The notes under the pieces are model-generated. The model was not told the origin of the DNA and searched no databases. It saw only the letters and a list, made by a program, of their open reading frames with translations. Below, in pieces: positions 9,172 to 13,342 of a stretch of 32,634 nucleotides of DNA; position 1 is the first letter of the stretch, and every line of letters starts with the position of its first letter. The translations under genes and the position numbers were made by a program. The stretch lies in contig JACDCH010000363.1 of the NCBI GenBank assembly GCA_013694495.1, positions 1 through 32,634 on the forward strand. The letters run 5' to 3'. Source of the DNA: Acidimicrobiia bacterium (lineage in GTDB: Bacteria > Actinomycetota > Acidimicrobiia > Acidimicrobiales > JACDCH01).

Positions 9172-9397
9172 GGGTGGTCTCCAGGGGGGTGTGGGGGTTG
9201 TGATGGCGCAGCATCAGGGCGATGCAGACGAGTGCCGCGACCACGCCGAGGGACGGCGCGCTGGCGGGGCCGGTGGTCATTCCGAGCATCGAGGTCAAGA
9301 CCACGATGGCGAGCATCGGCCCGGCGCAGCACGCGGCGAGGGCGAGCAGCAACCTTCGCTCCCGCAGCGCACCGGGTGGCTGCTGGCCGCTGTTCAT
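9095..9397 (-). CDS. Small two-TM protein with vicinal cysteines in TM1 (ACCAGP; MerT/MerF-like motif)
   Basis: [26 protein letters not shown]...[21 protein letters not shown]-coupled to the copB stop; 3' end overlaps the cupredoxin start. Confidence 0.65.
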
Positions 9398-11554
9398 CGT
9401 TGGCCTGCCGGGGTGGGAGCGCCGTCGGCCACGTGATCGTCACCGTCGTTCGCGGCGCTGGGCGCTTCGATCGTGTTCATGTCGGTGATGGGTCGGGGGC
9501 GGAGGTCGAGCCGTCTGAGCAGTTGGGCGTTGGCGGCGACAACGATGGTGGAGACGCTCATCAGGACGGCGCCGACCGCGGGGGGCATGGTGATCCCGGC
9601 CCACTGGAGGGCACCGGCGGCGACGGGGATGGCGATGACGTTGTATCCGGCGGCCCAAGTGAGGTTCTGGAGGGACTTGCGGTAGGTGGCCTTGGACAGC
9701 TTGATGATGGAGATGACCGCTCGTGGGTCCGAGCTGGCCAGGATCAGACCGGCGGACTCGATTGCCACGTCGGTGCCGGCGCCGATGGCGATGCCGACGT
9801 CGGCGCGGGCGAGGGCGGGGGCGTCGTTCACACCGTCGCCGACCATGGCCACGTTGAGGCCGCGGCCCTGGAGCTCGGCGACCTTGGCGGACTTGTCTTC
9901 GGGGAGGACCTCGGCGAACACCTCGTCGACCCCGAGGTCGGCGCTGACGGCGTCGGCGACCTGGTGGGCGTCGCCGGTGATCATCACCACGCGGCAGCCC
10001 ATCTGGCGGAGCTGCTCGACGGCCTCGCGGGCCTCGGGGCGGATCTCATCCTCGAGCGCGAGGGAGCCGACGATCTCGGCTCCCTTGACCCAGGTAGAGG
10101 ACCGCGGCGCCCCGCTCCTTCCAGCCGGCGGTCTGCTCGGCGAGGTCGGCCGGTTCGGTGAGCTGGCGCTCCCGGAGCAGGACCGGGCCCCCGACGGCGT
10201 AGGCGGCTCCTTCGACGGTGGCTTCCACGCCGCGTCCCGTGATCGAGCGGAAGTTGGTGGCCTGGGCGACGTCTCCCCACTGGTGCGCCGAGGTGACGAT
10301 GGCGCGGGCGAGGGGATGCTCGCTGTCGGCCTCGACGGCGCCAGCGATGCGCAGGATCTCGTCGTCGGTGTGTCCTGCGGTGGCGGCGACACCGATCACG
10401 ACGTGCTCGCCCTTGGTGAGCGTGCCCGTCTTGTCGAACAGGACGGCGTCGATGGTGCGGCTGGCCTCCAAGGCGAGGCGGTCCTTGATCAGGATGCCGT
10501 TGCGGGCCGCCATCGCACTGGACAGCGACGTGGTCAACGGGATGGCGAGGCCCAACGCATGCGGGCAGGAGATCACCAGCACGGTGACGACTCGCACCAC
10601 GGCCTCGTTGCCGTCGCCGAGCAGTGTCCAGACAACCGCGGTGACGATCGCGGCGCTGACGGCCACGTAGAACAACAGCGCGGCGGCCCGGTCGGCCAGC
10701 ACCTGGCTGCGGGACTGTGACTCTTGAGCCTCAGCGACGAGACGGCCGATCCCGGCCAGGGCCGTGTCGTCGCCGACGGCACTCACCCGCACGCGGATCG
10801 CCGAATCGGTAGACACCGTGCCGGCCACGACCCTGCCACCGACGGTCTTGGCCACGGGGCGGGACTCGCCGGTGATCATCGACTCGTCGAGCTCGGCGTC
10901 GCCGTCGACGATCTCCCCGTCGGCGGGGACGCGGCCACCGGAGCGGACCAGGACCACATCACCCACGCGGAGGTCAGCAGCAGGGATGGTCTCGACGGAA
11001 CCGTCGGCGGCCACCCGCTCGGCCTCGTCGGGCAGCAGCGCGGCGAGGGCCGCGAGGGCGTCCTGGGCCTGGCCCAGGGCCTTCATCTCCTGCCAGTGCC
11101 CGAGCAGCATGATCGAGATCAGCGCGCCGAGCTCCCACCAGAAGTCGAGGTCGAACCAGTGCAGCGACGTGGCCATCGACGCGCCGTAGGCGACGGTGAT
11201 CGCCATGGCGATCAGCAACATCATCCCCGGTTGGCGGTCTCTGGCCTCCTGGACCCCGCCGGCCAGGAACGGCCACCCGCCCCACACGAACACGAACGTG
11301 CCGAGCACCGGACCGACCCAGTCCATCCCGTAGAACTCGAGCTCGTAGCCGAACCAGTCCATGACCATGTGGCTGGTGACGACCAGCGGCACGGTCAGGA
11401 GCAGGCTCCACCAGAACCGGCGCCGGAACATCTCGACGTGGTGGCCGGCGTGCTTGCCGCCGTGGCCGGGCGACACCGTGGTCATGCCCGCGTCGCGGTG
11501 GGCCGCGGTCGGGTCGGTCGTGTGGTGATCGTGGGTGGGGTGTCCGGTCGTCAT
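9394..11554 (-). CDS. copB: Copper-type P1B ATPase with CPH motif (CopB-like), split by a frameshift near 10088-10090
   Basis: [54 protein letters not shown]; His-rich N-terminus. ORFs 10046..11554 and 9394..10392 are two halves of one protein. Confidence 0.92.
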
Positions 11555-11564
11555 CGCAGGGTCC

Positions 11565-11846
11565 TCACGTCTTCAACAGCCGCTGGACCGCGTCCGTCGC
11601 CTCGGTCAGCTTCTGTTCGGCTTCGGGTCCCCCCGCCGCTACGGCGTCGGCGACGCAATGGCGGAGGTGGTCGTCGAACATCCCGACGGCGACGCTCTGC
11701 AGGCCCTTCGTCGCCGCCGAGATCTGCGTCAGCACGTCGATGCAGTAGCGGTCCTGCTCCACCATCTGGGCGATGCCGCGCACCTGCCCCTCGATACGTC
11801 GGAGACGCCCCAGCAACTCGTCCTTGTTCATCTCGTAGCCGGGCAT
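11565..11846 (-). CDS. csoR: CsoR-family copper-sensing repressor
   Basis: MNKDELLGRLRRIEGQVRGIAQMVEQDRYCIDVLTQISAATKGLQSVAVGMFDDHLRHCV; C...HxxxC ligand pattern. Confidence 0.95.
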   Translation of the reverse strand: MPGYEMNKDELLGRLRRIEGQVRGIAQMVEQDRYCIDVLTQISAATKGLQSVAVGMFDDHLRHCVADAVAAGGPEAEQKLTEATDAVQRLLKT

Positions 11847-11856
11847 GGAGGGGACT

Positions 11857-11873
11857 ATACCCCGGTAGGGTAT
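11857..11873. promoter_or_regulatory. Candidate CsoR operator ATACCC-CGGTA-GGGTAT
   Basis: Inverted repeat just upstream of csoR with the TACCC/GGGTA arms typical of CsoR sites. Confidence 0.8.
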
Positions 11874-12023
11874 TAGCAGCAACCGGGTGAACGACCGGTG
11901 CGCCATCTCGCCGTCGAAGCGCCTGCATGACCGAGCGAGACAGCCGGGCCGGGTCGATCTGGCCGGCTCGAGCCGCCTCGAACATCTCCTCGATTTCCGG
12001 CCGGGCTGACTTCGGCCCTGCCT

Positions 12024-12735
12024 CTACGCCCAACCACCGGCGTAGGCGACGAACTGGCCGGTCGTGAATCGGCTGGTCCCGTCGAGGAAGGGCATGCAGA
12101 ACGAGGCGAACTCCTCCATCGTGCCCAACCGGCCGAGCGGAACCTGGGCTTCGATCTTGCGGCGGACCTCTGGGTCGGTCGCGCCGCTGGCTTGCAGGAA
12201 GCCCGGGAAGTCCATGAAGTTCGTGCCCACTGCGTTGACCTGGACGCCGTTGCTGGCCACCTCGTCGGCGACATTGCGCGTGAGCATCGTGGCGCCGGCA
12301 CGAGCCGATGAATACAGCGGCGCGCCCGGTGTCGGGCGGGCGGCAGACGCGCTGGTGATCACCAGGATCTGCCCGTCGCCCTGCGCGATCATCGGATCAA
12401 CGACAGCTTTGAGAAAGCGAAACGGCGCTTCGAGACAACCCGCCACCACCGTCCGAAGGTCCTCGACGGTCGAGTTCACGAATCTTCCGGTGACGATCTG
12501 CCCGGTAGCCGCCACCGCGGCGTCAAGGCGCCCGAATCGTTCCACGGCGGCGTTCACCAGTGCCGGTGCCGAGTCGGGCTTGGCCAGGTTCCGGACCCCC
12601 GTGACCACCTCGACTGAAGCGCCGAGAGCTTCGAGCTCGTCGACGAGCCCGTCGCAGGGTCTCCGATCACGAGGTTGTGATCGCGTCGCGCCACCGCAGC
12701 TGCGGGGAATCCACTCACCGGGGCGGTGGTCAGAC
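12024..12735 (-). CDS. SDR-fold protein resembling halohydrin dehalogenase (HheG-like); 5' portion degenerate or frameshifted near 12650
   Basis: RFGRLDAAVAATGQIVTGRF; ITSASAARPTPGAPLYSSARAGA (S-x12-Y-x3-R); VNAVGTNFMDFPGFLQAS; VPLGRLGTMEEF...TTGQFVAYAGGWA. N-terminal VSGFPAAAVARRDHNLVIGDPATG is in another frame. Confidence 0.7.
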
Positions 12736-13342
12736 GTCGGTGGCCGGCCCAGAACCGCTGGAGGATCACCGCGCTGCTGGCCGCGGCGGCGAGGGGGAGG
12801 CCGACGGTCGGTGTCCCGCCCCAGGCGTTGGGCCAGCCCCGTCGCCACCACAGGGTGGCGGCGCCGACCCAGAGGGCGGAGGACGCGGCGGTGGCTGTGA
12901 AGGCCCGCTGCTTCGACGGGCCGACGGCGACGGCGGTCGCGATGGCGATGTCGATGGGGACGTAGGCCGGGAGGGTGGCGAGGCACTGGCCGACGCTGCA
13001 GCCGACGCCCTTCCCGCCCCGGAACTGCTTGGTGACGGGGTAGCAGTGCCCGACGACCGCGGCGACCGCGGCGATGTGCTGGCCCGTGTCGCCGGCGACG
13101 AGGCGCCCCACTCGGGTGGCGATGGCGCCTTTGGCGATGTCGGCGGCCATGACCCCATACCCCCAGCGGGCGCCGAGGACGGCGGCGGCGTTGGCACCAC
13201 CCGGGTTGCCGGAGCCGTGCTCTCGCAGGTCGACTCGCCCACCGCTGGCCAGGCGGGCGGCCACGTCGGCCGACGGGACGAGACCGGCCGCGTAGCCGGC
13301 GGCAGCCGCCGCGGCGACCCTGGTCCAACGGTGGCCGGTCAT
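12700..13342 (-). CDS. PlsY-family glycerol-3-phosphate acyltransferase; 3' end unclear
   Basis: LREHGSGNPGGANAAAVLG, AAVVGHCYPVTKQFRGGKGVG, multiple TM segments; start ATGA-coupled to the upstream methyltransferase. Confidence 0.85.

Follow-up and report, generated by a model that had tools for sequence, protein, structure and literature searches.

Halohydrin dehalogenases (HHDHs) turn halogenated alcohols into epoxides and are prized by chemists; few have been characterised, and they are useful for making chiral alcohols. HheC and HheG natively dehalogenate beta-haloalcohols to epoxides by means of Ser-Tyr-Arg and, in the reverse reaction, open epoxides with azide, cyanide, nitrite and similar anions (PMC11976700, PMC10099379). 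HHDH motif 2 is defined by S-x12-Y-x3-R in place of S-x10-14-Y-x3-K (PMC11976700). The G type is the HHDH type known to accept cyclic epoxides (PMC10099379), and an HheG homologue with a short DPAE linker has been described from an Actinomycetota/Acidimicrobiia bacterium (PMC11536340). What HHDHs do in nature is only presumed: they would detoxify or degrade haloalcohols that occur naturally (PMC11536340). Here we analyse a 32,634-nucleotide stretch of acidimicrobial DNA (the window) and conclude, with a probability of about 93%, that it carries a G-type halohydrin dehalogenase gene from an uncultured acidimicrobial actinomycete, and that the 5′ end of this gene is missing in the present sequence.

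A G-type halohydrin dehalogenase core

The core of the gene comprises 209 codons and a stop on the minus strand (12024..12653), running from DGLVDELEALG to AYAGGWA, with its 209 residues encoded at 12027-12653. Translation of the frame ending at 12024 includes ITSASAARPTPGAPLYSSARAGA, then NAVGTNFMDFPGFLQAS and, immediately before the stop, TTGQFVAYAGGWA. Over these 209 residues the core is 74% identical to PDB 7WKQ, 71% to AbHheG (8H8Y) and 48% to HheG, and about 30-33% identical to HheC, HheA2 and 6A41; the nearest proteins from Acidimicrobiia MAGs reach 71-78%. Among PDB sequences, phmmer ranked 7WKQ, labelled 'halohydrin dehalogenase', first (E = 3e-101), followed by AbHheG (8H8Y) and its mutant 8HQP and then by HheG chains at ~1e-54, with the first non-HHDH SDR appearing only at ~1e-18. 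Given an E value of 3e-101 to 7WKQ, the resemblance to HHDHs is not due to chance. The GC content of the core by codon position is 0.69/0.51/0.82.

The catalytic residues of the family are present. HHDH motif 2, S-x12-Y-x3-R, is read directly from the sequence as SASAARPTPGAPLYSSAR (12300..12353, minus strand), exactly as the original prediction described it, and is common to every relative that covers this region. The classical SDR signature, Y-x3-K together with TGxxxGxG, is broken in the core by Arg at the Lys position; seven ordinary SDRs taken from the same genome for contrast all carry Y-x3-K. Alignments also identify GTNFMDFPGF (12198..12227, minus strand), which we take from HheC structures to be the halide/nucleophile loop; its counterparts are GTNYMDFPGF in HheG and GPNYLHSEDS in HheC.

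In a maximum-likelihood tree of HHDHs and the seven own-genome SDRs, the HHDHs stand apart from these SDRs with support of 100/98. HheG falls in a G-type clade (98/97) with the other HHDH types outside it, HheB, HheE and HheF having been left out of the tree, and the window core groups with 7WKQ, AbHheG and Acidimicrobiia MAG proteins (97/86), in clades separate from HheC (1PWX), HheA2 (1ZMO) and the 6A41 dehalogenase. The phylogeny proposed as a check on the original prediction places the core inside the G-type clade, not among ordinary SDRs, and the assignment to HHDHs is upheld by alignment and tree alike. The proposed likeness to HheG holds at the level of the G type, but the closest characterised proteins are 7WKQ and AbHheG, HheG itself being only 48% identical.

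Homology suggests HHDH chemistry for the window gene. An intact relative would use an SDR fold in which no nicotinamide cofactor takes part. Its Ser and Tyr would hold and deprotonate the hydroxyl of a beta-haloalcohol with the help of Arg, and the alkoxide would displace the halide into a pocket that motif 1 and the GTNF loop shape between them, after which the epoxide would depart. In reverse, azide, cyanide, nitrite and similar anions would be expected to open epoxides.

The damaged 5′ end and its surroundings

The window keeps the back four-fifths of the HHDH gene; the front, including part of the halide pocket, is gone. BLAST of 7WKQ and relatives, which matched different frames on either side of the break, located an N-terminal remnant, AAAVARRDHNLVIGDP, in the plsY reading frame (12656..12709, minus strand). 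Residues 20-38 of 7WKQ match AAAVARRDHNLVIGDPA at about 12656-12709, in a frame neighbouring that of the core, and the homology from residue 35 onward sits in the core's frame. Since pieces of 7WKQ match two different frames, we place a one-base frame change near 12655. The family's first ~19 residues have no counterpart here, and translation upstream of the core recovers neither an HHDH start codon nor motif 1 in any of the three frames; a frameshift or partial deletion had rightly been suspected at this end. Motif 1 (T-x4-F/Y-x-G), which lines the nucleophile pocket, has gone with the 5′ end, so that the window copy is only part of an HHDH gene and not a complete HHDH. No frame before the core contains GxxxGxG, but the stretch where it would lie is itself missing; intact relatives lack the Gly-rich NAD(P) motif (T-G/A-x3-G/A-x-G) and have their motif 1 at the corresponding position. 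With no start, first beta-strand or motif 1, and with a frame break as well, the gene as it reads here would be expected to yield no active enzyme.

At the junction (12710..12740, minus strand), three-frame translation shows the end of plsY reading on into the HHDH remnant with no intervening stop, and with no HHDH start or motif 1 in between. The plsY gene, encoding glycerol-3-phosphate acyltransferase (12735..13342, minus strand; PF02660, E = 3e-28), is 47-69% identical to relatives in the order and has lost its natural stop in the junction; intact plsY relatives, at plus-strand loci, terminate about where the junction lies. A second HHDH copy or a stray N-terminus was sought elsewhere in the 88%-complete assembly, and none rose above noise.

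A methyltransferase gene and DegV accompany plsY upstream of the HHDH gene, and downstream lie a CsoR-type metal-sensitive repressor (11565..11906, minus strand; PF02583, E = 2e-28) and a copper-type P-ATPase (9394..11554, minus strand; PF00122 and PF00702). The ATPase is split over two frames by a break near 10080, with PF00122 and positions 1-80 of PF00702 in one frame and positions 85-191 of PF00702 in the other; together with the break in the HHDH gene, this makes at least two frame breaks in 2.6 kb of the contig. Between the HHDH gene and CsoR is a short ORF, RPEIEEMFEAARAGQIDPARLSRSVMQALRRRDGAP (11851-12033, minus strand). Searches of 59 related genomes gave no match to it, and Pfam returned no family above cut-off; it may be a gene fragment. 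GC content falls to 0.66-0.67 at 11500-12500 (HHDH core and CsoR) against 0.70-0.75 on either side. Since plsY, CsoR and the short ORF were sought beside HHDH in related loci and none was there, the copper neighbourhood is treated as incidental, with no copper-HHDH link. The copper genes that the original prediction set beside the HHDH gene are present, but they are not conserved neighbours.

With the copper ATPase frame-broken 2.6 kb away, an assembly error rivals a pseudogene as the explanation of the damage, and we lean slightly towards the former. At odds a little better than even, the organism has an intact HHDH gene whose 5′ end was lost during assembly through an indel combined with a misjoin or a collapsed stretch. 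Besides the second frame break, this reading draws on the draft state of the assembly (665 contigs, 88% complete), on plsY lying beside HHDH in no relative examined, and on the remaining 209 codons, which contain no stop, keep every catalytic residue and retain 74-78% identity to relatives, unlike a long-dead gene; a one-base indel alone, however, cannot account for the missing start and motif 1, so that a misjoin is needed too. Somewhat short of even odds, but still plausible, is real damage: a recent pseudogene, formed when a deletion joined the tail of plsY to an internal part of the HHDH gene. The plsY frame does enter the HHDH remnant without a stop, and the GC3 of the HHDH stretch is slightly below that of its neighbours (0.82 vs 0.89-0.93), as an acquired gene might show, yet the remaining 209 HHDH codons show no decay, and the frame break in the nearby ATPase, a gene expected to be intact, points to sequence error. 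That the protein is an ordinary SDR dependent on NAD(P), in which Arg has replaced Lys by chance, is highly improbable: Pfam and NCBIfam do return only generic SDR families for the core, the kind of whole-protein annotation that had been anticipated, but the 74% identity to a crystallised HHDH, the HHDH-specific GTNF loop, the tree position and the Y-x3-R shared by dozens of relatives all argue against it.

Relatives, motif 1 and a recurrent sulfatase

Across GTDB genomes, 57 loci encode a relative of this HHDH. Those with at least 50% identity are mostly from Acidimicrobiia, with single cases labelled Geodermatophilaceae, Gammaproteobacteria and Dehalococcoidia. A G-type HHDH match at E <= 1e-35 occurs in 46 of the 299 sampled genomes of the window's order; the original prediction spoke of a sparsely sampled family, but G-type HHDHs are fairly common there and not rare.

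Motif 1, counted directly from the N-terminal sequences of the relatives, reads [A/S/G/T]-x4-Y-x-G-P in intact proteins. Within the window's sub-clade (L009-L036, L069 and L073) another residue stands in for Thr in 29 of 30 proteins while Tyr and Gly are kept, the position being occupied by Ala (22), Gly (3), Ser (2), Asn (1), His (1) and Thr (1); the sister group containing HheG has Thr in 11 of 11 readable cases. The replacement is clade-wide but not new, as two such variants have already been published. These counts show that the published Thr-first pattern would miss most of the sub-clade and, since the relatives' usual motif 1 departs from the consensus, a match to that consensus would be no clean test even of an intact copy.

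The sole hint to a natural substrate found in our analysis is a recurrent sulfatase. A PF00884 sulfatase of ~770 residues (identity at least 57%) lies near HHDH in 12 of 40 unselected related loci, or 8 if five near-identical freshwater loci are taken as one, and a weaker sulfatase stands beside HHDH at L034. Loci with a sulfatase within ~4 kb of an intact G-type HHDH are L011, L012-L015, L019, L021, L022, L025, L026, L031 and L036, and also L071; at the freshwater loci, genes for an acyl-CoA dehydrogenase and a Rieske oxygenase come next. No sulfatase was present in 20 arbitrary 9.3-kb regions taken from five genomes that carry HHDH, giving p = 0.012 by Fisher's test (9/36, L034 included, vs 0/20), where the sulfatase count comes from unselected loci only and the genomes for the arbitrary regions were partly hand-picked. 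HHDH and sulfatase share a contig within ~4 kb in at least 12 of the 46 HHDH genomes. The association is suggestive only, since the loci are related to one another and such sulfatases abound in the order (187 of 299 genomes). There is no sulfatase near the window HHDH; those of its own genome lie on other contigs and are 43-46% identical.

Chrysophytes and marine phytoplankton have chlorosulfolipids, which are sulfate esters carrying chlorine (PMC13413282), and desulfation followed by dehalogenation would suit such molecules; the literature searched yielded no link between HHDHs and sulfatases. It is conceivable, though we consider it unlikely, that the job of the widespread sub-clade with A/G/S-x4-Y-x-G is to dehalogenate sulfated halohydrins, for example algal chlorosulfolipids, together with the neighbouring sulfatase. 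If true, HheG-type enzymes would gain a natural substrate, which at present is only assumed.

Comparison with characterised halohydrin dehalogenases

HheC (1PWX), HheA2 (1ZMO) and 6A41 share the HHDH fold and Ser-Tyr-Arg with the window protein but differ from it in their low identity (about 30-33%) and separate clades. HheG of Ilumatobacter coccineus (5O30) is nearer, being G-type, 48% identical and equipped with a GTNYMDFPGFL loop; unlike the window's clade, it keeps the motif-1 Thr (T-MATG-Y-V-G) and has a long flexible loop at 39-47 that this clade does not have. AbHheG (8H8Y; 71% identity) has the same motif 2, the same loop and a short linker, but is intact, with motif 1 reading S-DTRY-Y-V-G. 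The closest counterpart is 7WKQ, which at 74% identity shares S-x12-Y-x3-R and the NAVGTNFMDFPxFLxASGAxDPE loop, and whose HNLVLGDPAE is matched by HNLVIGDP in the window remnant; 7WKQ carries DPAE at the short-linker place described for the HheG homologue. It differs in its intact N-terminus with G-DASF-Y-V-G, of which the window copy has nothing. The window copy is unusable as it is, whereas dozens of intact relatives are usable. It is a damaged new member of a known enzyme family, the intact close relatives of which are already known and crystallised.
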